64,000 nt of DNA from Prochlorococcus sp. MIT 0603 (GTDB taxonomy: Bacteria > Cyanobacteriota > Cyanobacteriia > PCC-6307 > Cyanobiaceae). The notes beneath the pieces were generated by a model. It made no database searches and had not been told where the DNA came from. It saw only the letters and a program-made list of their open reading frames with translations. The position numbers and the translations under genes were made by a program. Below are positions 2,806 through 36,662 of this stretch, piece by piece. The first letter of the stretch is position 1; the number at the start of each line of letters is the position of its first letter. Location of the stretch: positions 124,001-188,000 of the forward strand of contig NZ_JNAW01000003.1 of NCBI RefSeq assembly GCF_000760215.1, read 5' to 3'.

Positions 2806-2910
2806 AAAATAGCATAAGATAAGGGAAAGTACAATCAACAAAAATGCTAGATAAACCTCTTATTACTTTGATTATAAAGAAATATAATGATCAACGGATT
2901 AAAATTTAAA

Positions 2911-14148: not shown

Positions 14149-14733
14149 TTAGTTATCATTACCTAGTACAAGTTCATCTAAAGCTCTACATAATAAATGA
14201 AGGAAAAAGATATGGCTTTCCTGAATAGAGGCAGTAGTAGTCCATGGAAAATCAATAATAATGCCGTCACTATGTTGTATGGTATTAAGATCTGATGTTA
14301 GAAGAATCCAATCTATTGAATTTTCTGATGCATATTCTATAACTTTTAATATATTTCTACTAGTGCCACTTGTTGATATTCCAACTACCAAGTCATCCTT
14401 GCGACTAAGTGCTTTAAATTCTCTTAGGAATATATCCTCATAACAATAGTCATTACCTGAAGCTGTAACAACTGATTGATTTGCTCCCAAGGCATAAGCA
14501 GAGAAAGGTTTTCTTTCTCTCTTGTAACGCACAACTAATTCTGCTATAAAATGCTGAGAATCAGAGAATGATCCACCATTACCACAAGAAAAAATATTCT
14601 TCCCCTTGATTATTTTAGAGTATATTAAATCAATAGATTGCTTAAATAAAACAGAGAAATTATCACTCTTTACAAAATCAAGTGTTTGTATATGATCTGA
14701 ATATGAAAAGTCGATTAATTTATTATCTATCAT
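14149..14733 (-). CDS. gmhA: Sedoheptulose 7-phosphate isomerase GmhA
   Basis: SIS-fold isomerase that converts sedoheptulose 7-phosphate to D-glycero-D-manno-heptose 7-phosphate, the first step to both ADP- and GDP-heptose. The 194-residue protein is the usual length. GNGGSFSDSQHFIAEL places His61 and Glu65 at the positions of the known zinc ligands, and Gln171/His179 in TASIQESHIFFLH match the later pair. GISTSGTSRNIL (118-129) is the phosphate-binding segment. It is one base downstream of the epimerase at 14735 and ends the minus-strand run that also holds HddC, so it probably serves the GDP-heptose branch at least. It is the only GmhA in the window. Confidence 0.92.
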   Translation of the reverse strand: MIDNKLIDFSYSDHIQTLDFVKSDNFSVLFKQSIDLIYSKIIKGKNIFSCGNGGSFSDSQHFIAELVVRYKRERKPFSAYALGANQSVVTASGNDYCYEDIFLREFKALSRKDDLVVGISTSGTSRNILKVIEYASENSIDWILLTSDLNTIQHSDGIIIDFPWTTTASIQESHIFFLHLLCRALDELVLGNDN

Positions 14734-14734
14734 G

Positions 14735-15688
14735 CTACAAAATATTTATATTATTCTCAGCCCATCTATATGTTAACTCTAATGATTGAGTAAAGTCTGA
14801 TTTTATTTCCCATCCTAAGTCTTCCAAAGCTTTTGAGCAATCCAATGACAAGGCAGTAGGTATATCAGGTTTTGATATATCATTAAAGATATCTAAGTCT
14901 TTCCCACTTAATCTTATTATTAATTCGGCCAGTTTATTAATTGAGATAGATTCTCCCATACCACAGTTATAGAGTCCAAAAGAATCAGTTTGATTAGAGT
15001 ATGACTTTTCTATAAATGATATTAAATCTTTTATATATATAAAATCTCTTCTAGCCTTACCTGTTCCCCAAACATTCAATTCACCTTTTTGTGGTGAATT
15101 AATTACTTTTCTTATAGTAGCACCAAGAACATGGCTTTTATTTAAATCAAATTTATCGTAAGGTCCAAATACATTAGAATGTCTAATTACTGTTGTTTTC
15201 ATACCAAGATTTGAATAAAACTTGCACATCTTCTCAATATATATTTTAGTGTTTCCAACTCCAAAATAAGTAGGGTTTATTTGAGTAGATTCATCCCAAT
15301 CCTCTTCCTTTTGTTTTTCTAATGATGCAAGCATAACAGTACAGCTAGGAAAGATAAAATGCTTGACATGAGATTCAAAAGATTCTCTAAGCAAATGAGA
15401 ATTCATTACGGCATTATCTGTTACATGTAAATATGGTCTATTTTTTATATCATTAGCGCCCGAAGTAGTGGCTGCAAATTGAAGGAAGAGATCAGTATTA
15501 TTAATATATTCTTTTAATGATCCTGCTAATCTTAAATCAGTATTAACCCATCGGACATTGTTATTGAATCCGTCTAAAGGTGGTCTCTTGAAATTTATTG
15601 CAATAATTTCATTTCTTTGATCTCTCGAAAAGTGTTCTAATAAATTCCTACCAATAAAGCCTGTAGCACCACAAATAATAATTTTCAT
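14735..15688 (-). CDS. GDP-fucose-synthase-like SDR, altered active site
   Basis: Extended SDR of 317 residues related to GDP-4-keto-6-deoxymannose epimerase/reductase (Fcl/WcaG). It shows the nucleotide site CGATGFIGRN near residue 6, FPSCTVM (about 113-119), RHSNVFGPYDKF and WGTGKARRDFIYIKD, all typical of the group. The segment expected to hold Tyr-x3-Lys reads TYFGVGNTKIYIEK: the lysine is there but the residue four before it is Val, with a Tyr three further away. It starts two bases after the stop of a second, related SDR and is followed one base later by GmhA, so it probably acts on a GDP-heptose intermediate. The reaction (epimerase, reductase or both) cannot be settled here. Confidence 0.75.
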   Translation of the reverse strand: MKIIICGATGFIGRNLLEHFSRDQRNEIIAINFKRPPLDGFNNNVRWVNTDLRLAGSLKEYINNTDLFLQFAATTSGANDIKNRPYLHVTDNAVMNSHLLRESFESHVKHFIFPSCTVMLASLEKQKEEDWDESTQINPTYFGVGNTKIYIEKMCKFYSNLGMKTTVIRHSNVFGPYDKFDLNKSHVLGATIRKVINSPQKGELNVWGTGKARRDFIYIKDLISFIEKSYSNQTDSFGLYNCGMGESISINKLAELIIRLSGKDLDIFNDISKPDIPTALSLDCSKALEDLGWEIKSDFTQSLELTYRWAENNINIL

Positions 15689-15690
15689 GC

Positions 15691-16662
15691 TTATTTGCTC
15701 TCCTTAAAGGAATTGTAGCGTTTATACCCCAAATAGCCCTCTTCCTTAAACCATTTAACTGTATCAGCAATTCCATCCTCTAAAGTAATTAATGGATTCC
15801 ACCCTTTACTCTTGAGTCGACTAACATCCATAAGCCTTTTGTTATCTCCTTGGAAAGTCGACTCTGTAAATTCATAGCTTACATTATGGAAATTTCTAAT
15901 AACCTCTTCTACAACATTCTTGATTGTTGTAGGGTTCCCAGATGATACGTTGACTGGTTCTTGAATATTATTATCCATTACATACTTCATTGCTCTTGCA
16001 ACATCAGATGCATGTACAAAGTCTCTTATAGGACAGCCATCTCCCCATACTTTCAATGGATTCTCTCCTTTATATAGACGAGCAATTAATGAAGGTATGA
16101 CCATTGCATTTTCAGGGTCAAAGTTGTCATACCTTCCGTATACATTGCCTGGTCTAACGATTGAATATATTGATGATGAGTTTTGATACTGGATCCTATA
16201 TGCATCCGCTTGTAACTCTCCCATCCTTTTTGCCCAGCCTGCAAAACGATCATTCTCAGAAGGGAATGTAGACCAAACATCATCTTCTTTAAATATTTCT
16301 GCTGGATGATAGACCCCTACTGAACTGGTATAAAGATACTTCTTTACACCTGCTCTTCTAGCAGCTTCCATCATATTTAAGCTAAATGTAATTGTAGGCA
16401 CAAAGAAATCTGCTGGCTGTTCTCTGCACATCTTTGGAGATCCCTTGACTCCTGCTAAATGATAAACCTCTTCAATTTCCTCACAGGCTTCTATGCAATT
16501 GTTGATATCTCTTAGATCTAGTTGTTTAAATTTAGCATTGGGATGACAAAGCTCTTGTCCATCAAGTGATGCGACAGTAACATTATGAGAATCACGAACT
16601 AGTAGTTCTACTAGATACCTTCCTATCATTCCTGTTCCACCTGTTACTAAAACATTAGACAT
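15691..16662 (-). CDS. NAD-dependent epimerase/dehydratase SDR, altered active site
   Basis: Extended SDR of 323 residues with the nucleotide site TGGTGMIGRYL near residue 7, HLAGVKGSP, YTSSVGVYHP (about 110-119), RPGNVYGRYDNFDP and VWGDGCPIRDFVHASDV. The catalytic region reads RFAGWAKRMGE: lysine is present but Ala stands where the Tyr of Tyr-x3-Lys should be. The gene is paired with the next SDR (2-base gap) and GmhA (1-base gap). Context with GmhA and HddC suggests a role in changing C3/C5/C4 of a GDP-heptose, but a hexose substrate is possible. Confidence 0.72.
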   Translation of the reverse strand: MSNVLVTGGTGMIGRYLVELLVRDSHNVTVASLDGQELCHPNAKFKQLDLRDINNCIEACEEIEEVYHLAGVKGSPKMCREQPADFFVPTITFSLNMMEAARRAGVKKYLYTSSVGVYHPAEIFKEDDVWSTFPSENDRFAGWAKRMGELQADAYRIQYQNSSSIYSIVRPGNVYGRYDNFDPENAMVIPSLIARLYKGENPLKVWGDGCPIRDFVHASDVARAMKYVMDNNIQEPVNVSSGNPTTIKNVVEEVIRNFHNVSYEFTESTFQGDNKRLMDVSRLKSKGWNPLITLEDGIADTVKWFKEEGYLGYKRYNSFKESK

Positions 16663-17918: not shown

Positions 17919-18614
17919 TTATCTCTTATTCATTTTTTTGTATCTATCTAATGTGCCGTAATCATGAAATTTAACACTGAATGGAGTTGCCTTTACAGAC
18001 TTTTCTTTTACAAGCATAGGGATAATATCTGATTCCAAGGAAGATGAAATTACGCTCTGACTCCTAAAGTATTCTGTTTTACATCTATATAAGCCTATAC
18101 TTGTGTATATTTTAGATAAGTGATGTTGTTTTTCAGGTAATGTCTTTTCAGCAAATTTTATAATATAGTTATTATAATCTATATGGATAGATCCGGAATC
18201 ATCATAATTATTATCAGTACATGCAATATTCAGCTTAACTGAATCATCCATATTAGTTTTTTGTAAGAATTCAAGTAAGTTTACTTCTTGAATTGTATCT
18301 CCATTAAGAGCAATAAAGTCTTTGGTTTTTATTAGTCTTGAAGCTAGAGCAAGTGCTCCTCCAGTTCCTAAAGGCTGATTTTCTTTGGAGAAGGTTATCC
18401 TTGAACGATAGTTAACTGAGGAGATGTAATTTTCAATTATGTTATGAAGATGACCTGTGGCTAAAATTATTTCTGAATTTTGTGGGAGGTAATCATTGGC
18501 CAACCAATCAAGCATAGTTTGATTTTTGTTTATTTTTACCAGTATTTTAGGTAAAGTACTAGATACCTCTTGAAATCGTGTACCTTTCCCTCCACACAAT
18601 ATGACTGTATACAT
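17919..18614 (-). CDS. hddC: Heptose-1-P guanylyltransferase HddC-like
   Basis: Nucleotidyltransferase of 231 residues predicted to make GDP-D-glycero-alpha-D-manno-heptose from heptose 1-phosphate and GTP. It opens with LCGGKGTRFQEVSSTLPKIL, the pyrophosphorylase signature, then LATGH, QPLGTGGAL (about 81-89) and IALNGDTI (about 97-104) with the metal-binding Asp. Length and the short C-terminus match HddC better than hexose-type enzymes (over 250 residues). HddA (30826-31815), GmhA and GmhB are all in the window, which supports the GDP-heptose assignment. It sits 39 bases after the SDR at 18654. Confidence 0.83.
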   Translation of the reverse strand: MYTVILCGGKGTRFQEVSSTLPKILVKINKNQTMLDWLANDYLPQNSEIILATGHLHNIIENYISSVNYRSRITFSKENQPLGTGGALALASRLIKTKDFIALNGDTIQEVNLLEFLQKTNMDDSVKLNIACTDNNYDDSGSIHIDYNNYIIKFAEKTLPEKQHHLSKIYTSIGLYRCKTEYFRSQSVISSSLESDIIPMLVKEKSVKATPFSVKFHDYGTLDRYKKMNKR

Positions 18615-18653: not shown

Positions 18654-19358
18654 TCATCTCCCTCCATTTACATCTATATTTGTTCCACTAATATAGCTAC
18701 TTCTAGTTGAAGAGAGAAAGTATATAGTTTCAGCAATATCTTTTGGTGTAGCTAGTCTGCCTAAGGGGATTCCCTTAACAGGAGCTATAGGGTTTTCAAG
18801 GTTGATTAAATCAACCTTGCCAGGGCTGACTATATTTATTCTTAAATCATTAGGTCCATACTCATAAGCAAGTGATTTACATAAATTATTCATACCTGCC
18901 TTTGCTGCACTATAGATTGAAAGCCCAGGAGCCTGATATTTAGCTAATTGAGTTGAAACATAGATATATGCCTTATTATTAGAAATAGACCTATAAGCTA
19001 ATGCATCACAAGATACTTTTGTGAACCAAATAGAATTTATAAAGTTAATTCTAGATAACCTGGATATCTCTTCATAAGTCATTGATGAAATATTATTCCT
19101 ATCTCCTGCTTCTGCTGCCAAATGAACAACAGTTTCAATTGATTTTAGATCAATATTAGAAAATACAGAATCTATATCATCTTCAAACTTAGAAGAAGAA
19201 AAGTCCAACTGAAAATAATGAATTTGCTTTTTTGAAAGGGAATCACTATCTATTTTTGAATTTCTTCCTAATTGAATTATTTCTTTGCCATATGAACTAA
19301 AGATGTTTTTTGTTGCTTGACCTATAGAAGATGTAGCTCCTGTTATTAATACACTCAT
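18654..19358 (-). CDS. Classical short-chain dehydrogenase/reductase
   Basis: A 234-residue classical SDR with the cofactor site TGATSSIGQA (6-15), HLAAEAGDRNN (the NAG-like segment), a Ser-containing YVSTQLAKYQAPGLSIYSAAKAG stretch where YSAAK is the catalytic Tyr-x3-Lys, and the C-terminal YISGTNIDVNGG common to FabG-like enzymes. FabG itself is not implied: the gene sits between HddC and a Nudix gene in the heptose group. It could reduce a keto-sugar nucleotide at C4, supplying the Tyr-dependent reductase that the two SDRs at 14735-16662 seem to lack. That role is inference. Confidence 0.78.
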   Translation of the reverse strand: MSVLITGATSSIGQATKNIFSSYGKEIIQLGRNSKIDSDSLSKKQIHYFQLDFSSSKFEDDIDSVFSNIDLKSIETVVHLAAEAGDRNNISSMTYEEISRLSRINFINSIWFTKVSCDALAYRSISNNKAYIYVSTQLAKYQAPGLSIYSAAKAGMNNLCKSLAYEYGPNDLRINIVSPGKVDLINLENPIAPVKGIPLGRLATPKDIAETIYFLSSTRSSYISGTNIDVNGGR

Positions 19359-22125: not shown

Positions 22126-22267
22126 TAAATAAGTTGATAGTTTATTTTTATTTATTCTATCATGCTAGATAGTAATTATTTTTATAAGCTAAATATCAAT
22201 ATTGGCTATAAATATAAAATCCTAGCAAGCATTAAAAAACCATGGTATAAAAAAATCTTTATAGCAG

Positions 22268-23350
22268 TTAATCACTCAAATAGTCATTAAGGTCACTAAT
22301 ACATAAGTCTTTTGCTAATAAAGGATTTTCTGAAAAAGATTGGTGCCAATAAATTGTTTTTTTTATTGCTTCTTCAAATGTCCACTTTGGTTTCCAATTT
22401 AGATCCTGAAATGCCTTATCTATTTGCAAATTAAGATTCTTTGCCTCATGTTCTTGATTTATAGTACTTATATCTTCCCATTGACCTGGCCAATAGGATA
22501 AGACACATTCAACTAAATCTTTTACAGAACGGTTTGATTCTTGATTGGGACCAAAGTTATATGCAGAGTTGTATTTATTGTTTAAGCCTTCCGAAGAAAA
22601 CAGTTTCTCCGCAAGACTAATATAGCCACTTAATGGTTCTAATACATGTTGCCAAGGCCGTTTTGAAGCAGGGTTTCTTACTTTTATCACAGCTCCATTT
22701 GCAAGAGCTTTAATAGCATCAGGTAATATCCTGTTTTCAGACCAATCTCCACCTCCTATAACATTACCAGCTCTTGCTGAAGCTATAGCATGATTAAAAT
22801 TAGGTGAATTTGCTTTAGTGAAAAAACTAGATCTCCAACTTGATATTGCAATTTCTGCTGCTGCTTTGCTTGAACTATATGGATCATATCCGCCTAGAGG
22901 ATCGTTTTCTCTATATCCATACTGCCATTCATTATTTTGATAAACCTTATCTGTAGTTACAATTACTATGGCACACTTTCCTTTTATTTTCTTTAATGAT
23001 TCTAAAATATTAATAGTACCCATTACATTAGTTTTCCATGTATATACTGGCTCAAGATAGCTTTTTTTTACTAAAGGCTGCGCTGCCAAGTGAAATATTA
23101 TTTCTGGCTGAAAGCTATTAAATGTATCCTCAACTTTGGAAAGGTTATTAATATCAACTATGCAATGTTTATCTAAGATTTTATGTAAATTAAGTTTGGT
23201 AAATAAATTTGGCTGTGTTAAAGGTTCAAGGCTTAATCCACAAACCTCAGAACCAAATTCTTTTAACCAAAGTGAAAGCCATGAGCCTTTAAAACCAGTA
23301 TGACCAGTTATTAATACCCTTTTTTGTTTCCAAAAGTTCTTATTATTCAT
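22268..23350 (-). CDS. rfbG: CDP-glucose 4,6-dehydratase
   Basis: SDR that converts CDP-glucose to CDP-4-keto-6-deoxyglucose. It has VLITGHTGFKGSWLSLWL (cofactor site with the GFKGSW typical of RfbG), HLAAQPLVKKSY, IVTTDKVYQNNEW with the Thr-Asp-Lys triad, ENDPLGGYDPYSSSKAAAE (Tyr-x3-Lys) and RAGNVIGGGDW. About 360 residues is standard. The reading frame is open to 23365, but the ATG at 23350 overlaps the RfbF stop as ATGA, the best-supported start. It feeds the RfbH-like enzyme downstream. Confidence 0.93.
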   Translation of the reverse strand: MNNKNFWKQKRVLITGHTGFKGSWLSLWLKEFGSEVCGLSLEPLTQPNLFTKLNLHKILDKHCIVDINNLSKVEDTFNSFQPEIIFHLAAQPLVKKSYLEPVYTWKTNVMGTINILESLKKIKGKCAIVIVTTDKVYQNNEWQYGYRENDPLGGYDPYSSSKAAAEIAISSWRSSFFTKANSPNFNHAIASARAGNVIGGGDWSENRILPDAIKALANGAVIKVRNPASKRPWQHVLEPLSGYISLAEKLFSSEGLNNKYNSAYNFGPNQESNRSVKDLVECVLSYWPGQWEDISTINQEHEAKNLNLQIDKAFQDLNWKPKWTFEEAIKKTIYWHQSFSENPLLAKDLCISDLNDYLSD

Positions 23351-24114
23351 TCCCATACTTTCCATGGTGGATTATCAGAAGCCCATAAATCTTCTAACTT
23401 GTGTTTATCCCTCATTGTATCCATTGGTTGCCAAAAACCATCATGTTTATAAGCTAACAATTCCCCATTTCTAGCCAAAGTTTTCAAAGGATAGTCCTCC
23501 CAAGTACATTTATCACCGCTTATTAATTCAAGTACAGACTTTTGAAGTACAAAATACCCACCATTGATCCAAGAACCATCTCCTTTAGGTTTTTCAATGA
23601 AATCAGTTACTTTGTTTCTATCCAAGTTAATCAAACCAAATCTTCCTGGTGGTTTAACAGCAGTTAATGTTGCTTTTTTACCATGCTGATAATGGAAATC
23701 AATTAAAGATTTTATGTTTATATCTGCAACTCCATCTCCATATGTAAAACAAAATGTTTCGTCAAGATAATCACTTACTCTAGCTAATCTTCCCCCAGTC
23801 ATTGTTTCTATTCCAGTATCCACTAAAGTAATCTTCCAAGGTTCTGTCTTAGTATGATGAATCTCAATATCATTCTTTTCCATATAAAATGTAACATCAC
23901 TTGTATACAAAAAATAATTTGCAAAATATTGTTTAATTAAATTACCTTTATAACCACAACATATAATAAAATCATTTATTCCATAGGAACTATATGACTT
24001 GAGTATATGCCATAAAATTGGTTTTTCTCCAATTTCAACCATTGGTTTTGGTCGAATATTAGTTTCCTCAGAAAGACGTGTTCCAAATCCACCTGCTAGT
24101 ATTACAGCTTTCAT
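23347..24114 (-). CDS. rfbF: Glucose-1-phosphate cytidylyltransferase
   Basis: Makes CDP-glucose from CTP and glucose 1-phosphate, the first committed step to CDP-3,6-dideoxyhexoses. The 255-residue protein has LAGGFGTRLSEETNIRPKPM (signature), FIICCGYKGNLIKQYF, TGIETMTGGRL and FCFTYGDGVADI with the metal Asp; EKPKGDGSWINGGYFV is the sugar-binding part and QPMDTMRDKHKLE the C-terminal part. These are all specific to RfbF. Length matches the 257-residue homologues. First gene of the rfbFGH run; divergent from the RfbJ-like gene with 65 bases between starts. Confidence 0.94.
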   Translation of the reverse strand: MKAVILAGGFGTRLSEETNIRPKPMVEIGEKPILWHILKSYSSYGINDFIICCGYKGNLIKQYFANYFLYTSDVTFYMEKNDIEIHHTKTEPWKITLVDTGIETMTGGRLARVSDYLDETFCFTYGDGVADINIKSLIDFHYQHGKKATLTAVKPPGRFGLINLDRNKVTDFIEKPKGDGSWINGGYFVLQKSVLELISGDKCTWEDYPLKTLARNGELLAYKHDGFWQPMDTMRDKHKLEDLWASDNPPWKVWE

Positions 24115-26531: not shown

Positions 26532-27926
26532 ATGAGTATAAAGCCACCAAATTTAATTGTTTACGAATTAAATGAGGTCCCAAAGAGAGTAATTGATCAT
26601 TATATTTTGCACCGACCATATAGCAATATTTCTAAACTATATAAAAGAGGTTCATTTATTGAGACTGTTACAAGGGATTCAGGTGAATTGCATCCTTGGA
26701 GTACTTGGCCTTCTGTCCACAGAGGAGTGACGAATGATCTTCATGATATTCGGTTTATTAACCAAGATTTAAGTTGTGCGAGTAAATATCCACCTATTTG
26801 GCAGGTATTAGAGAAATCCGGAATAAGTATTGGAATATTTGGTTCATTACAATCTTATCCTCCTTACAAGGGAGGCAATGTAAAATTCTATCTTCCGGAT
26901 ACCTTTTCTCCAGAATCCAAGGCTATCCCAAGAGAACTGGAATTGTTCCAAAGGTTTAATCTTCATCTAGCTAAAAGAAATAAAGCAGTTGCTCAAGGCA
27001 TTCAAAAAAGAGACATAACTAATCTTAGTAAATTAATCAAAAATAATATTATATCTATTTCCGTTTTATTAAAAACATCAATTCACATGTTAAAGGAGAT
27101 TTATGATAATAGAAATAAAAAAAGAAGGGCTAACATTCAAGCATTGATTTCATTTGATGTATATAAAAAATATTTAATTGATCTTGAGCCACAATACTCT
27201 ACTTTTTTCTCTAATCATATAGCATCTACAATGCATAGATATTGGATGCATTCTTTCCCAGAGGATTTTGGAATCCTAGAAGACGAAAAAATTATAGATA
27301 AACAATTCAATTCAAAAAGCTTAATTAAAGCAATGGACTTAGCAGATTTTCAAATAGGAAATCTATTAAAATTGCAAGAAAATAGAGGTGGAGATTTGTG
27401 GATTATTTCAGGTTTTGGTCAAAAGGCAATTCTCAGGAATGATTTACAGGAATATGAACTACTCCTAGAAGAAGACAGTAAATTACTTAAGATTCTACAA
27501 CTAGATTATAAGATGTATGAATTTATTCCAGCCATGTATCCAGATATAAATATTGAGTGTGATTCTGAACATTATGTAAATCTACTATTAAAGAATATAA
27601 ATAGGTTAAAGGATATAAATAATATGCCTATTCTTCAATTACGTTATAAACCTAAGCAAAATACAGTTAATATAATTATATCTAATGTTCATGGCCTTAA
27701 CGAAGCTGCTATTATATATCTAGATAATAAAGAAATAAGGATAGAAGAAGCTGGGTTTAAACTAATAAAAAGGGATTCAGGGACAGGCTATCATTCGAAA
27801 AATGGTATAATATTATTTAATAGTGATAAAACAGAAGTATTGAAAAAATTTGTTGACAGCAAAACAGGATATTTAGATATATGTAATATTTTTCAGATGA
27901 CAAAAGATCATTTCAAGATAGAGTAA
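26532..27926 (+). CDS. Alkaline-phosphatase-superfamily-like protein, degenerate
   Basis: A 464-residue protein resembling type I phosphodiesterase/alkaline-phosphatase-fold proteins seen in polysaccharide clusters. Similar parts are LIVYELNEVPKRVID (8-22), SGELHPWSTWPSVHRGV (about 50-66), where Ser/Thr would be the nucleophile, and FFSNHIASTMHRYWMH (about 225-240). The usual metal segment (Ser-Asp-His-Gly) reads WIISGFGQ (290-297), so Asp and His are missing and activity is doubtful, though GTGYHSKNGIILF keeps a later His. No signal peptide or membrane span. Its last 19 bases overlap the end of the converging membrane-protein gene. Confidence 0.6.
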   Translation: MSIKPPNLIVYELNEVPKRVIDHYILHRPYSNISKLYKRGSFIETVTRDSGELHPWSTWPSVHRGVTNDLHDIRFINQDLSCASKYPPIWQVLEKSGISIGIFGSLQSYPPYKGGNVKFYLPDTFSPESKAIPRELELFQRFNLHLAKRNKAVAQGIQKRDITNLSKLIKNNIISISVLLKTSIHMLKEIYDNRNKKRRANIQALISFDVYKKYLIDLEPQYSTFFSNHIASTMHRYWMHSFPEDFGILEDEKIIDKQFNSKSLIKAMDLADFQIGNLLKLQENRGGDLWIISGFGQKAILRNDLQEYELLLEEDSKLLKILQLDYKMYEFIPAMYPDINIECDSEHYVNLLLKNINRLKDINNMPILQLRYKPKQNTVNIIISNVHGLNEAAIIYLDNKEIRIEEAGFKLIKRDSGTGYHSKNGIILFNSDKTEVLKKFVDSKTGYLDICNIFQMTKDHFKIE

Positions 27927-29047
27927 TTAAACTTTTTATCTTTCTCTAGTTGACTAATAACTGCTAAAGGGAAAACTATTCCTGGTGGTATAAAGTTAAC
28001 TCTATGTCTCTGAGCTGTCCCGACATTAAATGCTCCCGGGACACAAAATAATGTTAAGTAAATGAATGTAATGCCAAAGAAAATAATATTCAATACTCTC
28101 TTTAAATAAGTATTTTCAGAACATTTACGCAAAGCCCTTGTCCAAGTGATATAATATAAAAATAGAAATATAAAAGAGTCTAATAAAATAAACATTGATT
28201 TCATAGGGCTATTTAATACTTCACTTACTGTGGGAAACAAAGCAAGAAAGGGAAGCCTAATAAAATTACTAAACTGATAAAATCCCCCTAAGTCAACAAG
28301 AAAATACCTAGAGAAATTAGCATCTAGTGATAAAAAACTTCCTGTTACAACCATATCAATCCACTCAATGAAAAATCTATTAGTGAGATAAACTATAGTT
28401 ACAATCAAGAATCCTAAAGAAAGGGTTATTATAGGTATTAGACTAAATCCCAATTGCGATGTTCTCAATGGTTTATACTTAAGTCTTATCAATGGGAATA
28501 TAGTTGTAGTTATGCCAATTAAAAACAATGGTGTAACCAAAACCCCTCTTAATATATAAAGTAGTGATAAAAGACTAAACCTAAGGATTAAACTCCTTAA
28601 GTTATTCCATTTATCTATATCATTTCTTGCTAAATTCGTTCCTTCAATTACTGCATAAAAGATAGCAACAGGCCATACAAGAGCTTCTTTGGATGGAATT
28701 GCTGTCCAAACGACCATACTTGGCAATGCTAGAACTAGCCACCATAAGTATGTGTATTTATCGTAAATAAACCTTTTAACTGAACTCCACAGCAATATAG
28801 GTCCTACAATTGATAGTAGAAAGCTCGCTATTAATTTATCTTGACCAAAGAGATTTACATAAATCCATAAAGTTAATTGAGACCTCCAACTCTCAGGTTC
28901 ATGATCATCTGCAAGACCCATATAATAGGTTGCATCTCCTAAACTATCAGTAAGCTCATTTAGCAGTCCATACATTACACAAACTATTATAAGTCTATAA
29001 AGTACATAAAATAAAAATTGCTTTTTAAAAGTAAAACTGTTTTTCAT
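27908..29047 (-). CDS. Polytopic membrane protein, candidate glycan polymerase
   Basis: Hydrophobic protein of 379 residues with about nine to ten predicted spans. It has a LPSMVVWTAIPSKEALVWP loop (around 107-125), a Pro-Ser...Trp...Lys-Glu pattern I associate with oligosaccharide-repeat polymerase-like proteins; a large extracytoplasmic loop with Arg follows. Wzy proteins are poorly conserved, so this is a candidate by topology and context only. It starts one base after the stop of the ABC exporter (29048) and is the last gene of the operon from 36108, a position that fits polymerase or ligase. Alternative: a lipid- or glycan-transferring membrane enzyme. Confidence 0.55.
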   Translation of the reverse strand: MKNSFTFKKQFLFYVLYRLIIVCVMYGLLNELTDSLGDATYYMGLADDHEPESWRSQLTLWIYVNLFGQDKLIASFLLSIVGPILLWSSVKRFIYDKYTYLWWLVLALPSMVVWTAIPSKEALVWPVAIFYAVIEGTNLARNDIDKWNNLRSLILRFSLLSLLYILRGVLVTPLFLIGITTTIFPLIRLKYKPLRTSQLGFSLIPIITLSLGFLIVTIVYLTNRFFIEWIDMVVTGSFLSLDANFSRYFLVDLGGFYQFSNFIRLPFLALFPTVSEVLNSPMKSMFILLDSFIFLFLYYITWTRALRKCSENTYLKRVLNIIFFGITFIYLTLFCVPGAFNVGTAQRHRVNFIPPGIVFPLAVISQLEKDKKFNYSILK

Positions 29048-30820
29048 TCAATTTGCTATTATGTTGTTGAAAATGACATTACCTTGGCTATCAATATTTA
29101 TATTGCTTCTACATTTTGCTGCTATAGTTTTATTATGTGTAATTATCAAAATAAGGCTTTGATTTAGTTCTATTAATAGTTTATCAATAAGTCGATTCTC
29201 TTTATCTGTGTCTAATGCATTTGTTGATTCATCTAATATTAAAATATTTGGTTTAACAATTAGGGCCCTTGCAATACCTAGTCTTTGTTTTTGTCCTCCA
29301 CTCATATTTATAGCTTGTTCACCTAAAATTGAATCAAGTTTAAAGGGAAGACTTTGTACATAATCTTCTAATTCAGCTAATCTCAAGCAATTCCAGACGA
29401 AATCGCTATTAATATCTAAATTTGTATTGCCTAGCGTTAAATTATCTATGATATTACCATTAATTATAGGGACCTCCTGAGGAACATAACCTATAGATGA
29501 TCCATTCTCTAAATAACTTGGCAATTCAATTGTTCCATGCGATGGTTTCAAAAGCCCAGATATCAAATCGACTAAAGTAGTTTTACCGCAACCAGAAGCT
29601 CCTGTTATAGATATAGTATTAGGTATATCTATCTTAAGGTTAGTATTATTAATTATATAATTTATATCATCTGCATTTGAATTACTAGAGTAAGCAAATG
29701 AGACATTCTTCAAAACAATGCTTTTGGAAGAGTTTTTGATTTTTATTATACCTTGAGGATCTCTTCTATCTAGATCTTTATTGGAAAATTCTTTTTCTTC
29801 TTTAATACTATCATATAAACCTATTATAGAATACTTATAGGTTGATATATATGCCCATATTCGATAAAGTTGCTGTAAAGTGGGCAAAAGCCTTTGAGAG
29901 GCAAATACAAATGTTATTATAAATGTTACCTGAATATTGAGAGAATTGATTTTAATAGATAATATAAATAACAAAGTTATTAATATAACTCCTAATGCTT
30001 CCAAGGCAAATCTAGGGTACTGCTCAAGAAATTCTCCTGTAGCTATCCTCTCGCGAAGTTTTCTTTCTCTTGACTCAAAATAACTACTATAATATCCTTC
30101 TGCATGAAAATGCTTAATTGTTTTTAATGAGGAAAAAGCTTCTTGAGTATATCGTGATATATCTTCATTTAAATTACCTATTTGACTAGATATTCTTTTT
30201 AATTTAGGTTTAATAATTCGAGATAATATTATATACGGTGTTATTAAGAATATTGATGAAAGCATGGTAACATTTGTATTGATATATGCTAGTAAAATTA
30301 GTATCAATACCGTAGAAAGAAGGTAACCAGAAAATAATATTATATTTTTAAATACTGCTACAAAATAAGTATTGTTTGTTCTATAAATACTAGAGTATTT
30401 GCTAAGATTAGCAGAACTTAAATCTCCATAATCTCGAGCTAATAACTGAGAATATGATGCTGAGAAAATACCTGCACTTATTTCACCAGACTGCCTACAG
30501 GCTTGCCACATAAGTAAGGTGCGGAGAACGTTGGAAAAACAAAAAACAAATAAAAATATTGATAAGGCTATTAATTTCTGTTCTAATTCATTATAAATGC
30601 TGAAATCAATTAAATTTTTAGGTATACTTAAGGCACTATTTAAAGAAAAATTATCTATGAGAACTCTATAGGTTGGCTGAACAAGAAATATAGATATAAA
30701 CTCAACCAAGGATGATATTAAGACTAAGCTTATCAAGCATATAATCCTAGATCTATAAGAATCAACCTTAGAGCTTTTTAATATTAAATATATGTATTTG
30801 ATTGCATTAAAAGTATCCAT
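29048..30820 (-). CDS. ABC exporter, fused permease-ATPase, PglK/MsbA-like
   Basis: Half-transporter of 590 residues with about six membrane helices in the first 320 and one ATPase domain after. The ATPase shows Walker A GASGCGKTT (around 408-416), the Q-loop GYVPQE, signature MSGGQKQRLG, and Walker B ILILDEST. It should work as a homodimer. No Wzx-type flippase is present in the window, and the gene lies in the operon with heptose synthesis enzymes, so a PglK-like role flipping lipid-linked glycan is the best guess; lipid A or other lipid export as by MsbA is possible. It is 5 bases after HddA and is immediately followed by the membrane protein. Confidence 0.85.
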   Translation of the reverse strand: MDTFNAIKYIYLILKSSKVDSYRSRIICLISLVLISSLVEFISIFLVQPTYRVLIDNFSLNSALSIPKNLIDFSIYNELEQKLIALSIFLFVFCFSNVLRTLLMWQACRQSGEISAGIFSASYSQLLARDYGDLSSANLSKYSSIYRTNNTYFVAVFKNIILFSGYLLSTVLILILLAYINTNVTMLSSIFLITPYIILSRIIKPKLKRISSQIGNLNEDISRYTQEAFSSLKTIKHFHAEGYYSSYFESRERKLRERIATGEFLEQYPRFALEALGVILITLLFILSIKINSLNIQVTFIITFVFASQRLLPTLQQLYRIWAYISTYKYSIIGLYDSIKEEKEFSNKDLDRRDPQGIIKIKNSSKSIVLKNVSFAYSSNSNADDINYIINNTNLKIDIPNTISITGASGCGKTTLVDLISGLLKPSHGTIELPSYLENGSSIGYVPQEVPIINGNIIDNLTLGNTNLDINSDFVWNCLRLAELEDYVQSLPFKLDSILGEQAINMSGGQKQRLGIARALIVKPNILILDESTNALDTDKENRLIDKLLIELNQSLILIITHNKTIAAKCRSNINIDSQGNVIFNNIIAN

Positions 30821-30825
30821 ATTTT

Positions 30826-31815
30826 TTAATCCTTATAGAGTATTGAACAACCTTCGTTTGTTATTTCAGGATCGTTGATCTTATAAGATTTCATTGCTTC
30901 ATTAAATCTATTTTGCTTTTCCTTAGGCACTAAAAATAAATAGAAACCACCACCACCTGCTCCTAGTAATTTGCCTGAATGAGCTCCAGCAGAGATAGCT
31001 TCTTCGTATATCGATAGAAGGTTTTCACTAAGTTTAGATCGTGGGAATGAGCTTGATTTATGTAGCCAAGATTCTCGTAAATAACTGCAGAAATCTTCAT
31101 ACTTCATTTCTCCATCTAAAATCTTGCTGTTAACCTTTTTTGCTATACGACAAATTTGCTTAAGAGATTCATCCTTTATCTGTTGATCTAAATTCTTATT
31201 TGCATTGTGAATATCCGAAGATGTCCTAGATATACCAGTATATAATAACAACATTTCCTGCGATATCTTTCTAACTAATTCATCACTAATGTCTAGTCTA
31301 AGTGTTCTATATAAACCATCTTCACGTATATTAATCAAGCTAAAGCCTCCTTGGCATGCTTGTATCTGATCTTGAATTCCTACATTTTCCTTTAGTATAT
31401 TTTGTTCAAAATTAATTGTACTTTCTGTTAGCTCTCTTATTGAGACTTTTTTACCTAAATATGTATTTAGGCCAAGTATTAAAGCTGAAGAAAAAGAAGA
31501 TGAGGACCCAAGGCCACTTCTTGCAGGTAAATCACCATCTGTATGAATTTCTAAACCTTGTTTTATTTTAAAATGATTTAGGGCTCCTCTTACTGCTGGA
31601 TGATCAATTTCACTAGGATCCTTGACCTCCTCTATCTTTGACCAAGACAATCTAAACCTTGTTCCATAAAATGGTGTTAATGGTCTAAGAGTTACATAGC
31701 AGAATGAATTGATTGTTGTTCCTATTACGACAGCTCCATTATTTTTATACCAAGATTCATGGTCTGTTCCACCACCAAAAAATGAAACCCTGAATGGAGC
31801 TCTAGTTATAATCAT
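30826..31815 (-). CDS. hddA: D-glycero-alpha-D-manno-heptose 7-phosphate kinase HddA
   Basis: GHMP-family kinase of 329 residues predicted to phosphorylate C1 of the alpha-heptose 7-phosphate, leading to GDP-heptose. Motif 1 is RAPFRVSFFGGGTDH (5-19); motif 2, the ATP loop, is LPARSGLGSSSSFSSAL (about 99-115); motif 3 is GKLLGAGGGGFYLFL near the end. These match HddA closely. It starts directly after the stop of the GMD-like gene. HddC at 17919 and GmhA/GmhB complete the route. A close relative, fucokinase-type GHMP enzyme, is a weaker alternative. Confidence 0.88.
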   Translation of the reverse strand: MIITRAPFRVSFFGGGTDHESWYKNNGAVVIGTTINSFCYVTLRPLTPFYGTRFRLSWSKIEEVKDPSEIDHPAVRGALNHFKIKQGLEIHTDGDLPARSGLGSSSSFSSALILGLNTYLGKKVSIRELTESTINFEQNILKENVGIQDQIQACQGGFSLINIREDGLYRTLRLDISDELVRKISQEMLLLYTGISRTSSDIHNANKNLDQQIKDESLKQICRIAKKVNSKILDGEMKYEDFCSYLRESWLHKSSSFPRSKLSENLLSIYEEAISAGAHSGKLLGAGGGGFYLFLVPKEKQNRFNEAMKSYKINDPEITNEGCSILYKD

Positions 31816-32823
31816 TTATCGTTGAAGAAATGTATTGCCTGACTTATTTATTTTTATACGCCAGTAATTCAATAGATCCTCAATTGTTTGTTGATAAGAA
31901 ATGCTAGGCGACCAATTTGTTTTTTTAACAAACTTACTAATATTAGGTACTTGTAAATCTGCATCGATTGGTCTAAGTCTATCAGGATCTACTTTATATT
32001 TAATTGATTTATTTGTAGACAAAGCAATTAAGTTATCTAATATCTCTCCTACCTTTAATGTTGTATTGCCACCTATATTATAATATGATCCAGGTTCAGG
32101 CGACTTATTTAATAAGGTCCAATATGCTCTAACAGCATCTCTTACATCAGCTATTGTTCGTAATGAATCAAGATTTCCAACCTTAACTATAGGCTCTTGA
32201 TAACCTTTCTCAATTAGAGCTATTTGTTTTGCAAATGTTGACTCCATAAACACATCACCTCTTCGAGGTCCAGTATGAGTAAACATACGAGTGATCTGAG
32301 TGTTTAATGAAAAAGCTTCTGCATAATATCTACCAATTAAATCAGTTCCACATTTAGAAATTGCATATGGTGAAGCTGGATGAAATGATGTTTCTTCATC
32401 TATAGGTACCTTATCCTTACTAACCCTTCCAAAGACTTCTGATGATGAGCAAACATGTACTATTGCCATAGGGGAATATTTTAAAGTTGATCTTAAAATA
32501 TGTTCAGTTCCATTTATATTTGTTTCATAAGTTTCAATTGGATTCGTAAAAGATACATGCGGGTAACTTTGAGCTGCTAAATGAAAGATATATTTGAACT
32601 TATATTTAGAGAAAATATTATCTACACCTATAGCATCTCTAATATCACAATGTTCGAGTTTAATCCTTTTGCCTTGATTAATTAAAGGAATATGATTGGA
32701 GATATTTTCTAATGAAGTCCTCCATCTAGATAAACCAATAATTTGCTCGTCTGTATTTTCAAGAACATAATCTAATAGATGTGACCCTACCATTCCTGTT
32801 ATTCCAGTAATTAATATTGTCAT
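31816..32823 (-). CDS. GDP-mannose 4,6-dehydratase-like SDR (GDP-heptose type?)
   Basis: Extended SDR of 335 residues in the GDP-mannose 4,6-dehydratase group: TGITGMVGSHLLDY (6-19), HLAAQSYPHVSF, CSSSEVFGRV with the Ser/Thr-x-Glu catalytic pair, SPYAISKCGTD (Tyr-x3-Lys) and FTHTGPRRGDVF. Because it lies between HddA (adjacent, no gap) and a ColD-type dehydrase (ATGA overlap), its substrate may be GDP-D-glycero-D-manno-heptose, as for the Yersinia DmhA and Campylobacter homologues, giving a 4-keto-6-deoxyheptose. GDP-mannose is the alternative; there is no mannose pathway gene in the window. Confidence 0.85.
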   Translation of the reverse strand: MTILITGITGMVGSHLLDYVLENTDEQIIGLSRWRTSLENISNHIPLINQGKRIKLEHCDIRDAIGVDNIFSKYKFKYIFHLAAQSYPHVSFTNPIETYETNINGTEHILRSTLKYSPMAIVHVCSSSEVFGRVSKDKVPIDEETSFHPASPYAISKCGTDLIGRYYAEAFSLNTQITRMFTHTGPRRGDVFMESTFAKQIALIEKGYQEPIVKVGNLDSLRTIADVRDAVRAYWTLLNKSPEPGSYYNIGGNTTLKVGEILDNLIALSTNKSIKYKVDPDRLRPIDADLQVPNISKFVKKTNWSPSISYQQTIEDLLNYWRIKINKSGNTFLQR

Positions 32824-34133
32824 GTCGAATAATTTTCTAGTTTAATAAACTGGTCTACATAATATAATATTTTCTCAATATCCTTAGACTTTAAACCTTG
32901 ATGACAAGGCAATGCTAAGCCACTAGAAGTTATTGCACTTGTAACAGAGAAATCGCCATCTTTTATATGCTGGAATTTGTTCATTACAGGTTGAATTGTA
33001 AAATCACCTGCAAGAAATGGTCTTGTTTCAATTTTTTTGTCGAGCAGGAAATCTCTGAAATGCCTTCTTTGTTTGTCTAAACGCCCCTTTAGTACAAGTG
33101 GGAAGCCAAACCAACTTGAGTTTGCCTCTGGTAAAGGCTCAATAAAAGAAAATATATCTTTATGGTTTTGAAAATATTCACTGTAGATCATTGCCATCTG
33201 TTTACGATTTTCTATAAAGCTATCTAGCATTTTAATTTGCTCTATACCAATTGCGGCTTGAGGTTCAGAAAGCCTTAAGTTATAGCCAATATTGCTAAAA
33301 AGAAAACCTTTATCCAATTCTTTATATTGAGAAAATATTGGATCATTATCTTCTAAATGTCTTAACCAGCCATGAGACCTTATTGATTTTGCAAGTGATA
33401 ATAATTCCTCGTCTTTAAAGCATGTAAAGCCTCCTTCAAGTGTGCAAATATGGTGAGAGTAATAAGTACTAAATGTTGATACTTCTCCAAAGGTTCCTGC
33501 TTTTCTTCCAGAGTATTCAGCGCCCATGCTTTCACAAGTATCTTCTATAATTAACATATTATTTTCATTACATAATGAACAAATTTGATTCATATCTGCA
33601 GGACATCCATAAGTATGAATAAGCATTATAGCTGATGGATTATATTTTTTAATTAAGCTTTTTAGATGATAAGTATCTATATTATAATCAGTATCATTAG
33701 CATCACAAAAAACAGGTACAAGGCCATATTGGACAAGAGGGAATACAGTAGTGGACCATGATAGAGCGGGCACTATTACTTTATCACCTACAGATAATCG
33801 GCCTGATTGCATTAGAGTTGATATTGCTAATAGGTTTGCAGAGGAACCTGAGTTGCATGAAAGTGATTTAAAGGAGCCTCCTAAATAATCTGAATATGAT
33901 TTTTCATAGAAATCAACCAATTTACCCATAGTAATCTGATTTCTAACTATTGCTCTAATGCAAGAATAAGCAGAGGAAGATTCTATAGTGGAATCATGTA
34001 ACCTAATTGGTTTATTTTCGTTAGTTTCCTGAATAGCTCTTATTGAATATAGCTTTTGTATACATATTTGCAATTCGTTTAAAGCAGAATCAAATTCAGC
34101 ACCAAATTCATTGTCATGTTTTAAATAAGACAT
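32820..34133 (-). CDS. ColD-type sugar 3-dehydrase, DegT family
   Basis: DegT/DnrJ-fold enzyme of 437 residues with STYYSHHICTLEGG at 222-235. His227 stands where the PLP lysine would be, followed by His-Ile-x-Thr-x-Glu-Gly-Gly as in GDP-4-keto-6-deoxymannose 3-dehydratase (ColD). IIEDTCESMGAEY (195-207) binds the cofactor. No 2Fe-2S cysteine cluster is seen, also like ColD, which reforms PMP using glutamate. The product would be a 3,6-dideoxy-4-keto sugar on GDP. Start overlaps the E1-beta stop (TAATG) and the stop overlaps the next gene (ATGA). An N-terminal 75-residue extension with several Cys precedes the core. Confidence 0.85.
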   Translation of the reverse strand: MSYLKHDNEFGAEFDSALNELQICIQKLYSIRAIQETNENKPIRLHDSTIESSSAYSCIRAIVRNQITMGKLVDFYEKSYSDYLGGSFKSLSCNSGSSANLLAISTLMQSGRLSVGDKVIVPALSWSTTVFPLVQYGLVPVFCDANDTDYNIDTYHLKSLIKKYNPSAIMLIHTYGCPADMNQICSLCNENNMLIIEDTCESMGAEYSGRKAGTFGEVSTFSTYYSHHICTLEGGFTCFKDEELLSLAKSIRSHGWLRHLEDNDPIFSQYKELDKGFLFSNIGYNLRLSEPQAAIGIEQIKMLDSFIENRKQMAMIYSEYFQNHKDIFSFIEPLPEANSSWFGFPLVLKGRLDKQRRHFRDFLLDKKIETRPFLAGDFTIQPVMNKFQHIKDGDFSVTSAITSSGLALPCHQGLKSKDIEKILYYVDQFIKLENYST

Positions 34134-35164
34134 TAGAATGGTCCCCTAAATGATTTAATCTCTGGACTTTCATCGATCATTATATCATCATCTATGTTAC
34201 ATAATTCTAATATATTTTTTGCTATAGAGGTTGGGTTTGGATAATAATAATTTTCTAGAGTTTTTGGAGTTGGGCATGGGCTATCTGAATAGCCCATTAT
34301 TTTAGACTTTCCCATAAATCCATTTAAATAAAGTTCACAAAGAATATCTTTAGCTATTGAGCATTTTGTCCAACCATTATCTATGATTAATAGATTTTTA
34401 TTTTTCATTGCAGACTCGAGAATAACTTCTGTAGAAATATTATCTAGTCTAACAATACTAAAATGATCTGAGGTTATATTCATTTTAGAACTTAATTCCT
34501 CAATAGCTCTACTTGCCTCAAGAGACATATGAGATATTGAAACAACTGTAATATCATTGCCAGATTCTAGCTTCCTGATACTAGGCTCATAACCTTCTTC
34601 TATATATACATTGCCTTTATTGCTATATAACATTCTATTTTCCACAATGATAACTGGATTTTCATACTTAGTAGCCCATAATATAGTATTAAACATGTCG
34701 TGAGGTGTAACAGGTGCAACTACAGTCAGTCCAGGTATTGATGATAAAAAACTATGAAATGATTGAGAATGTTGTGCGCCTTGCCCCCAGCTCCTTCCTA
34801 TAATTGCCCTAACTATTAATGGGCAGGAATCCTTGCCATTTGATAAATATTTTACTTTCGCAGCTAAATTAATAAGCTGATTCATGCAAAGCAACAAAAA
34901 ATCAAATCTCTGATGTACATGAATAGGCCTGAATCCATTTAAGGCCATGCCAATCCCTATCCCAGTCATTGCATCTTCAGATAGAGGTGTATCAAAGCAT
35001 CTGTTGCCACCAAATTCTTCTACTAGTCCTTCTGTGGTCCCGTACATTCCTTTAGGGTCATCTACGCCTAAGCCATATACAAGTACTTTTGTGTCTCTAC
35101 GCATAGAAAGTTTAATTGCCTGACCACAAGCTTCTCCATAACTAAGTAATTGATATTTTTCCAT
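34133..35164 (-). CDS. ThDP-dependent E1-beta-like subunit (pyruvate dehydrogenase type)
   Basis: Transketolase/2-oxoacid dehydrogenase beta-subunit fold, 343 residues. It has FDTPLSEDAMTGIGIGMAL (about 57-75) with the ThDP-activating Glu, GRSWGQGAQHSQSFHSFLSSIPGL (about 123-146) with the active-site QHSQ, VVAPVTPHD, and ENRMLY; the C-domain is a transketolase C fold. These match E1-beta of pyruvate or acetoin dehydrogenases, but no E2 or E3 gene is nearby. It is 5 bases after the alpha subunit and overlaps the ColD-like gene by one base. Best guess: partner in a two-carbon (acyl) transfer to a 4-keto sugar, by analogy with AviB1/AviB2-type enzymes. Confidence 0.82.
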   Translation of the reverse strand: MEKYQLLSYGEACGQAIKLSMRRDTKVLVYGLGVDDPKGMYGTTEGLVEEFGGNRCFDTPLSEDAMTGIGIGMALNGFRPIHVHQRFDFLLLCMNQLINLAAKVKYLSNGKDSCPLIVRAIIGRSWGQGAQHSQSFHSFLSSIPGLTVVAPVTPHDMFNTILWATKYENPVIIVENRMLYSNKGNVYIEEGYEPSIRKLESGNDITVVSISHMSLEASRAIEELSSKMNITSDHFSIVRLDNISTEVILESAMKNKNLLIIDNGWTKCSIAKDILCELYLNGFMGKSKIMGYSDSPCPTPKTLENYYYPNPTSIAKNILELCNIDDDIMIDESPEIKSFRGPF

Positions 35165-35169
35165 GATTA

Positions 35170-36108
35170 TTAGTATACAAATTGGGTCAGATTTGTTAGG
35201 TCACAATCCTTCTCTTTTAAAGCAGAAGAAAACAACTTCTGAACTTTATCTTCTGCATCTTTGGATTCTCTTAAAACAAATTCATCAGATACACCCCATA
35301 AGTTAGGGTTACTTTCAATATCAAATTTTTTCCAATAATTCAACTCACTCTCATCTCTATAACCCAAATGCCAGTCTGTAGCGACACCAACATGCTCATA
35401 CCATCTATAGCACCTCACAATATGGAATAAAGGTTCACCTAGTCTTACTTGCTTGATTGAATCTTGGACTTTTCCAACCAACTTAATTGGATCCTCATAA
35501 GTTGATTCATCAGTATTCATATTCCATGATTGAACTCTTGTTTTGTATGAGCTCGAAGGGGTCCTTGCTTCTTTAGATGAATGAATGGCTAACCCATTAT
35601 CCTCACATGCAAATAAAATAGGTAATGACTTTAATGATGCATAATTTATAGACTCAATAAAAACGCCTTCTTCCATTGCGCCGTCACCAAACTGACATAT
35701 AACAATCCTGTTTCCACCATCTTCTTGATTAAGGCGTTGTTGTGCTTCGGCTATGCCCACTGCAATTGGGATCCCTGATGCAACTATCGCACTCGTCCAT
35801 GTCATCCCCTTGTCATGGCAACCCAGATGCATTGATCCAGCTCTTCCTCCAAACTCTCCTGTTTTTTTTGCGAATAGTTCATCAGTAATCTTCTGGGGGT
35901 TGTCAGTCAAAGCCAGGGATAATGCATGACTTCTATAGTTCCCAATTACCTTGTCTTTCCTTTTAACATGAGAAGCCAATAATACGCTGAACAATTCCTG
36001 TCCAATACTAAGATGAACTGGTGACTTAATTACGTCGGAAGAGTACACATCTATTATTTTCTCTTCAAATTTCCTTATAAATAAGATCTTTTTTATGATT
36101 TCTTCCAT
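35170..36108 (-). CDS. ThDP-dependent E1-alpha-like subunit (pyruvate dehydrogenase type)
   Basis: Dehydrogenase E1 alpha-subunit family, 312 residues (shorter than typical pyruvate dehydrogenase alpha). Motifs seen: HLSIGQE (about 32-38), NYRSHALSLAL, FGGRAGSMHLGCHDKG (about 85-100), and the thiamine-diphosphate motif FGDGAMEEGVFIESINYASLKSLPILF..DN (about 138-168). The alpha/beta pair would form an alpha2-beta2 enzyme that decarboxylates a 2-oxoacid, probably pyruvate. First gene of the seven-gene minus-strand operon; divergent from GmhB with 17 bases between starts. It could in principle be a real pyruvate dehydrogenase subunit displaced into the island, but the neighbours argue against it. 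Confidence 0.82.
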   Translation of the reverse strand: MEEIIKKILFIRKFEEKIIDVYSSDVIKSPVHLSIGQELFSVLLASHVKRKDKVIGNYRSHALSLALTDNPQKITDELFAKKTGEFGGRAGSMHLGCHDKGMTWTSAIVASGIPIAVGIAEAQQRLNQEDGGNRIVICQFGDGAMEEGVFIESINYASLKSLPILFACEDNGLAIHSSKEARTPSSSYKTRVQSWNMNTDESTYEDPIKLVGKVQDSIKQVRLGEPLFHIVRCYRWYEHVGVATDWHLGYRDESELNYWKKFDIESNPNLWGVSDEFVLRESKDAEDKVQKLFSSALKEKDCDLTNLTQFVY

Positions 36109-36125: not shown

Positions 36126-36662
36126 ATGCATAAGAATTATAACCTAATGCTTCTTGACAGAGATGGAACAATAAACATAGATGAAGATGGCTACTCCCAT
36201 GATTATAATAAATGCATATTATTTGATGATGTTTATGAGTTTTTTACTAGAATAAATTATAATATAAAGGTATGTGTTGTTACCAATCAATCAGGTATAG
36301 GGAGAGGCTTATTTAGTCTTAATCAAATGAATGAATTCAATAATAAAATTAATAGTTTAATTAGAAAAAACTCTGATCATCCAGGCATAGATAAATTCTT
36401 TTATTGTCCGCATAAACCAATTGACTTATGTAATTGTAGAAAGCCAAAAACTGGTCTTATCGAAAAGGCATTGAATTACTATCAATGTAATTCAGAAAAT
36501 TCTATACTTATAGGAGATAAGACTACTGATCTATTAGCAGGAAAGGGATGTGGGGTCAAGTCATACTTATTGAAAAGGGGTGTGAATGGACAAAATAATA
36601 TTCATGAAAATAATTACATATCTAGCTTATTAGATCCATCTCTCGAATTTCTTTTCTATTAG
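36126..36662 (+). CDS. gmhB: D,D-heptose 1,7-bisphosphate phosphatase GmhB
   Basis: HAD phosphatase of 178 residues that removes the C7 phosphate of heptose 1,7-bisphosphate, shared by ADP- and GDP-heptose routes. Evidence: LLDRDGTINID (8-18) with the nucleophile Asp and second Asp; VTNQSGIGRGLF (about 52-63); zinc loop CPHKPIDLCNCRKPKTG (about 98-114) typical of GmhB/HisB; and LIGDKTTDLLAG. Length fits. The start (ATG 36126) is 17 bases from the divergent E1-alpha start, so both promoters must overlap the other gene's 5' end. Confidence 0.92.
   Translation: MHKNYNLMLLDRDGTINIDEDGYSHDYNKCILFDDVYEFFTRINYNIKVCVVTNQSGIGRGLFSLNQMNEFNNKINSLIRKNSDHPGIDKFFYCPHKPIDLCNCRKPKTGLIEKALNYYQCNSENSILIGDKTTDLLAGKGCGVKSYLLKRGVNGQNNIHENNYISSLLDPSLEFLFY

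Follow-up and report, generated by a model that had tools for sequence, protein, structure and literature searches.

Gene organization of the block

The stretch of DNA analysed here (the window) comprises 64,000 nucleotides of Prochlorococcus sp. MIT 0603 (contig NZ_JNAW01000003.1, positions 124,001 to 188,000), whose genome (G000) is of 1.75 Mb and whose close public relatives are Prochlorococcus single-cell genomes. On the minus strand, from 36108 to 29048, it carries a block of six genes, all starting with ATG: the E1-alpha and E1-beta subunits of an orphan thiamine diphosphate (ThDP) enzyme, a pyridoxal phosphate (PLP)-dependent 3-dehydrase, a short-chain dehydrogenase/reductase (SDR) of the 4,6-dehydratase kind, an HddA-like kinase and an ATP-binding cassette (ABC) transporter (Table 1). 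These genes follow each other with gaps of 5, -1, -4, 0 and 5 bases, respectively, and the next gene (27908-29047) starts directly after the transporter, with a gap of 0. The block sits inside a surface-polysaccharide region (1-44 kb) with a G+C content of ~28-34%, versus 36-40% in the housekeeping part.

An earlier reading of this DNA, made from the sequence alone, had described the same six genes with the same coordinates and proposed that they make a branched-chain dideoxyheptose. The observation is confirmed, since the gaps and domain assignments hold, and the interpretation is supported. We propose that the block and its partners in the window probably produce a GDP-linked deoxy sugar of nine carbons, with a branch, as a precursor of surface polysaccharide, and that the E1 pair would add an acetyl group to GDP-3,6-dideoxy-4-keto-heptose.

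The predicted GDP-heptose route

When compared with the PDB, the SDR (31816) matched GDP-D-glycero-D-manno-heptose 4,6-dehydratase (7us5) best, over almost its full length, followed by GDP-6-deoxy-D-lyxo-4-hexulose reductase (2pk3, 176 bits), the top GDP-mannose dehydratase being 2z1m. It is nearer to the solved heptose enzyme (321 bits) than to GDP-mannose 4,6-dehydratases (112 bits), in line with the heptose substrate proposed for it by the sequence-only reading.

The 3-dehydrase (32820) is a DegT-family protein, for which a function as aminotransferase was rejected because of its active-site histidine. The SHH motif, in which this His replaces the PLP Lys, is present in 13/13 of the block 3-dehydrases, as had been noticed for the protein of the window, and the nearest PDB structure is that of ColD. 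The ColD histidine therefore points to a 4-keto 3-deoxy product and not to an amine.

The kinase (30826) was assigned by best match and context. Its top NCBIfam model was HddA, with 102 bits against a cut-off of 600, and its top PDB matches were sugar kinases and HddA-type heptose kinases. GmhA-, HddC- and GmhB-like genes in the same window, overlooked previously as were two further SDRs, complete the route to GDP-heptose. As their scores are below the NCBIfam cut-offs, their names also rely on best match and context. In the related locus L064 (see below), a single protein encoded near the block combines a nucleotidyltransferase with a GmhB phosphatase, and in L062 one open reading frame matches both, which supports the context-based naming.

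Conversion of GDP-heptose to GDP-6-deoxy-4-keto-heptose and then to GDP-3,6-dideoxy-4-keto-heptose, the order of steps put forward by the sequence-only reading, has been demonstrated biochemically for enzymes of these two types from Campylobacter jejuni HS:5 and HS:11 (Ghosh, Xiang, Raushel; PMC10440746). The pathway is well supported as far as GDP-3,6-dideoxy-4-keto-heptose.

The E1 pair and the pyruvate dehydrogenase of the cell

E1-alpha keeps the ThDP motif FGDG...EDN and the histidines of SPVHLSIGQE and RWYEHVG, and E1-beta the catalytic Glu (FDTPLSE) and His (GAQHSQ). By its E1-alpha/beta domains, ThDP motif and catalytic residues, the pair has the constitution of a pyruvate dehydrogenase (PDH) E1. 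When compared with curated PDH E1 models, the two subunits remained well under the cut-offs (173 bits against 394 and 203 bits against 321). The block E1-beta carries a C-terminal ...SFRGPF tail, of which the genome's own PDH E1-beta is devoid.

No E2 homologue was found within the window or in 14 related loci. The sequence-only reading had taken this lack of a neighbouring E2 as an argument against a dehydrogenase complex. The lack holds for the window; the argument is weak because the PDH genes of this genome are scattered, the sole E2 being located far from the block (C2:29089). What counts instead is the existence of a separate set. A scan of the genome located a PDH-type E1-alpha at C3:86338 (272 bits) and a PDH-type E1-beta at C2:320788 (148 bits), which disposes of the concern that the cell has no other pdhA/pdhB pair. 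The cell's E2 thus does not depend on the block pair as its dedicated or sole E1.

Conservation of the block in other genomes

In a single scan of genome contigs from 84,980 species, an alignment of two E1-beta sequences, used as query, returned 14 loci, and tblastn served to compare their surroundings with the window. A 3-dehydrase was present in 12/14 and the heptose dehydratase in 13/14. Of 13 other orphan E1 pairs of picocyanobacteria, none had a ColD or SDR homologue above 200 bits (Fisher p about 6e-6 for the dehydrase and 7e-7 for the SDR). The order E1a-E1b-ColD-SDR was intact in L051-L053 and L057-L064, although in L052, L059 and L060 the contig ends within the SDR. L054 has the same genes in one cluster, with the E1 genes set apart from the rest. 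HddA homologues were observed in all ten loci with sufficiently long flanks.

The four proteins E1a, E1b, ColD and SDR have diverged in step with each other, as shown by the correlation of their pairwise divergences (Spearman 0.65-0.94, Mantel p <=0.005). The block sequences form one side of a branch of the E1-beta tree (support 98/94), a grouping partly expected since E1-beta had been the query for the loci; neither the dehydrase nor the SDR had served in finding them.

The loci are labelled Prochlorococcus, Rhodospirillales, Odyssella, Gammaproteobacteria, Thiothrix, Marinimicrobia and Nitrospiraceae and cover Cyanobacteria, Alpha- and Gammaproteobacteria and others; some of these labels may be wrong, as many of the records are metagenome bins. 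A search for the same gene order in other genomes, suggested by the sequence-only reading, has found it across several phyla, and the block is not restricted to cyanobacteria. Such recurrence indicates that the arrangement is not due to chance.

Related sets were also observed on plasmids of cultured bacteria, namely Azospirillum thermophilum, A. lipoferum 4B and Solidesulfovibrio magneticus RS-1, where E1a-E1b adjoins or lies near a His-type dehydrase together with HddA or HddC/GmhB homologues. E1 pairs of Streptomyces plasmids (L113, L116) are located in loci without evident sugar pathway. Two genomes (G290, G364) carry the heptose SDR without ColD nearby. As judged by gene content, three stages are represented among genomes: 6-deoxy-heptose, 3,6-dideoxy-heptose, and 3,6-dideoxy-heptose with E1.

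Proposed pathway and alternative explanations

In the proposed pathway, GmhA would convert sedoheptulose-7-phosphate to heptose-7-phosphate, which HddA would phosphorylate to the 1,7-bisphosphate; GmhB would release heptose 1-phosphate and HddC would form GDP-heptose. The SDR would then produce GDP-6-deoxy-4-keto-heptose, and the ColD-type dehydrase, with PLP and glutamate, GDP-3,6-dideoxy-4-keto-heptose. The E1 pair would decarboxylate a 2-oxoacid on ThDP, pyruvate being the likely donor, and the acyl anion would attack the ketone at C4, the likely site, to give a 4-C-acetyl branch, probably reduced afterwards to hydroxyethyl. Gene content, active sites and conserved linkage are established by this analysis; formation of the C-C bond, the compound that donates to it, its location at C4 and the reduction at the end are what we infer. 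Addition of a carbon unit by the E1 pair is probable and explains the conserved linkage best. The carbocyclic C9 sugar caryose agrees with the proposed product in being 3-deoxy and in its C4-linked two-carbon unit, but not in its 6-OH.

Several observations weigh against this interpretation. Every member of the pathway is assigned from sequence; HddA, HddC, GmhA and GmhB all score under their NCBIfam cut-offs, and no reductase is firmly assigned. All the loci derive from one E1-beta clade and are therefore not independent events. Two of the 14 depart from the block pattern. L055 has the SDR and HddA as well as another E1 pair of a different kind, but ColD is missing both from its 21 kb and from the adjoining stretch; in L056 a gene resembling B12-type radical SAM enzymes directly follows E1b (2800-4395). 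Finally, a relative (G052, genome 77% complete) contains ColD (52%), SDR (64%), nucleotidyltransferase, GmhB- and GmhA-like genes, its only E1 gene being a PDH-type E1-alpha. The first half of the pathway can therefore stand alone.

An unlikely alternative to the branching proposed here is that the pair provides an acyl or hydroxyacyl group for N- or O-acylation, or moves another unit (glycolaldehyde, a longer 2-oxoacid residue) instead of placing an acetyl group on the ring. The donor cannot be read from the sequence, and in a related plasmid locus, Azospirillum sp. TSA2s p2 (L117), a heptose 4,6-dehydratase clusters with a split transketolase. Here, independently of the block, a ThDP enzyme is encoded next to the maker of this ketone; it is another possible sugar-branching enzyme. 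However, genes for an acyltransferase, a CoA ligase or an E2 are not among the recurrent neighbours of the block, and the known E1-type sugar enzymes take their two-carbon unit from pyruvate (PMC12247030).

The window includes a second, CDP-linked 3,6-dideoxyhexose set (RfbF, RfbG, RfbH-like; 20923-24114), so that two different 3-dehydrases serve one locus. That the E1 pair branches the CDP sugar of this set, to give a yersiniose-like product, is somewhat less probable still. RfbF and RfbG do score above their NCBIfam cut-offs, and YerE adds its two-carbon unit to CDP-3,6-dideoxy-4-keto-glucose (PMC12247030). Nevertheless, no good RfbG match was found in the 14 block loci (20-30% identity only), 13 of which have the GDP-heptose dehydratase, and the E1 genes are co-directional and contiguous with the GDP branch. 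The CDP-sugar route was rejected, since RfbF/G/H are not conserved alongside the E1 clade.

We consider it very unlikely that the block, like that of C. jejuni HS:5, yields only a GDP-3,6-dideoxy-heptose that carries no branch, with the E1 pair playing no part. This route is proven in C. jejuni (PMC10440746) and occurs without E1 in G052, but E1a-E1b adjoins ColD in 11/12 of the ColD-carrying block loci, with correlated divergences. Equally improbable is a second pyruvate or 2-oxoacid dehydrogenase E1, placed in the sugar region by chance and using the genome's E2: its E1 homology is clear and a distant E2 would be no obstacle among scattered PDH genes, but PDH as primary role was rejected in view of the other E1 genes of the genome and the conserved linkage to ColD and heptose dehydratase across phyla, to which the distinctive GPF tail and RWxEHVG motif of the block pair can be added.

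Tyrosine-less SDRs and other neighbouring genes

The two extended SDRs, Fcl1 and Fcl2, have orthologues near most of the long block loci, across phyla: Fcl1 (44-61% identity) in L051, L054, L057, L061 and L063, and Fcl2 (55-69% identity) in L051, L055, L061, L062 and L064. In Fcl2, FAGWAK stands where YxxxK is expected (6/6 sequences), and in Fcl1 the catalytic Tyr position is occupied by V or A (6/6), while the other SDRs aligned with them retain the tyrosine. Fcl2 occurs in 4/400 picocyanobacterial genomes, two of which carry the block. The other two are G385, where a miniature E1 pair accompanies Fcl1 and Fcl2, and G026, which has Fcl1 and Fcl2, and a miniature E1-beta on a separate contig. 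The miniature E1-alpha (197 aa) and E1-beta (180 aa) of G385 (L108, 6272-7413) adjoin relatives of Fcl1/Fcl2 of 65-71% identity; the E1-beta gene encodes the pyrimidine-binding domain only. It is a doubtful extension that the product is a new class of nine-carbon branched heptose in which Fcl1/Fcl2 would perform an unusual branch step (e.g. intramolecular C-C closure or isomerisation) and not ordinary ketone reduction. Besides the tentative ketoreductase of the window, short SDRs are present in L057, L061, L062, L063 and L064; this family is too common to carry much weight.

The ABC transporter is possibly a flippase for a lipid-linked sugar, as judged by its similarity to PglK/MsbA. The protein encoded at 27908-29047, previously a candidate polymerase, had no family match in Pfam or NCBIfam, and that at 26532-27926 no Pfam match. 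HldE-type kinase and adenylyltransferase are encoded as separate genes at 10979-12810, which suggests a putative ADP-heptose route alongside the GDP-heptose route. In several loci (e.g. L056 2800-4395, L063 15388-17373) the E1 pair or the block has B12-binding radical SAM-like genes as neighbours, which possibly tailor the sugar.

Table 1. Coordinates and supporting matches of the block genes and their partners in the window
Feature	Coordinates	Strand	Matches
E1-alpha subunit of orphan ThDP enzyme	35170..36108	-	PF00676 (E1_dh) 103 bits
E1-beta subunit	34133..35164	-	PF02779 + PF02780 (Transket_pyr, Transketolase_C)
ColD/RfbH-type PLP 3-dehydrase, His for Lys	32820..34133	-	DegT 254 bits; PDB ColD 2gms 218 bits
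GDP-heptose 4,6-dehydratase (SDR), predicted	31816..32823	-	GDP_Man_Dehyd 229 bits; PDB 7us5 321.6 bits
HddA-like GHMP kinase, candidate heptose-7-phosphate kinase	30826..31815	-	NCBIfam HddA 102 bits; PDB 4usm, 3k85, 4n3o
ABC transporter, fused ATPase, PglK/MsbA-like	29048..30820	-	PF00005; NCBIfam PglK 188 bits, under cut-off
GmhB-like heptose bisphosphate phosphatase, divergent to E1-alpha	36126..36662	+	NF006506 142 bits, cut-off 178
GmhA-like phosphoheptose isomerase	14149..14733	-	PRK13936 150 bits, cut-off 276
HddC-like heptose-1-phosphate guanylyltransferase	17919..18614	-	top NCBIfam model HddC 91 bits, cut-off 300
Extended SDR Fcl2, GDP-fucose-synthase-like, without catalytic Tyr	15691..16662	-	
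Extended SDR Fcl1, without catalytic Tyr	14735..15688	-	
Short-chain SDR, FabG-like, tentative ketoreductase for the branch	18654..19358	-	NCBIfam short SDR

Other orphan E1 pairs and significance

Orphan E1 pairs of picocyanobacteria are not restricted to the block, and the neighbours of those in L038-L050 differ from its own. The pairs of L038-L046 lie in polysaccharide loci, most of them with recurring SDRs, an alcohol dehydrogenase-like gene and a SIS-type isomerase; in L038 and L041 the pair is fused into one protein. L047-L050 represent a further class without the GPF tail, whose neighbours in L048 and L049 include a gene of the DegT family and one for a PglC-like sugar transferase.

If the proposed pathway is correct, E1-type sugar branching would extend from actinomycete antibiotics to bacterial surface polysaccharides, and would operate on GDP-heptose instead of hexose. 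It would predict a sugar that can be searched for in culturable strains, attribute a role to part of the orphan E1 pairs that, in regions of this kind, bear the annotation pyruvate dehydrogenase, and provide a carboligase source for making tertiary alcohols.

Comparison with known systems

The C. jejuni HS:5/HS:11 pathway likewise uses GmhA, HddA, HddC, a GDP-manno-heptose 4,6-dehydratase and a PLP C3-dehydratase to reach GDP-3,6-dideoxy-4-keto-heptose. In contrast to the route proposed here, it continues with a C5-epimerase and a C4-reductase, and the paper reports no ThDP enzyme (PMC10440746). Its C3-dehydratase is 62-67% identical to known ColD-type enzymes, whereas that of the window, with 218 bits to ColD, is a member of a group further away. 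The GDP-colitose pathway (Gmd, ColD, ColC) also combines a 4,6-dehydratase with a ColD-type dehydrase, but on a hexose, with the ColC reductase and no E1 pair; clusters of this shape were found in other picocyanobacteria.

In yersiniose synthesis (Yersinia pseudotuberculosis), a 3-dehydrase gives a 3,6-dideoxy-4-keto sugar to which a ThDP enzyme, YerE, adds a two-carbon unit at C4, for the O-antigen. Sugar branches of lipopolysaccharide are credited to YerE-type enzymes (PMC12247030). YerE is a single-chain flavoprotein of the decarboxylase superfamily acting on a CDP-hexose, while the window encodes E1 domains in two chains, acting presumably on GDP-heptose.

The E1 pair is comparable, by gene context, to the alpha-KADH2 enzymes (AviB1/AviB2, Pau11/Pau12, KbDH-alpha/beta), E1-alpha/beta pairs of deoxysugar pathways proposed or shown to transfer a two-carbon unit from pyruvate onto a ketone (PMC12247030, PMC4425429); it too lies within a deoxysugar gene set predicted to yield a keto sugar. 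According to a 2025 review, such pairs place two-carbon branches on sugars of secondary metabolites, and KbDH-alpha/beta provides the in vitro proof of action on ketones (PMC12247030). They are known from actinomycete antibiotics, whereas the pair of the window is part of a surface-polysaccharide locus of a Gram-negative bacterium, together with a GDP-heptose pathway. A search of mostly open-access literature found no paper on an E1-type pair in a heptose or O-antigen pathway. The block would join two already known kinds of system, the GDP-dideoxy-heptose route and E1-type sugar branching.

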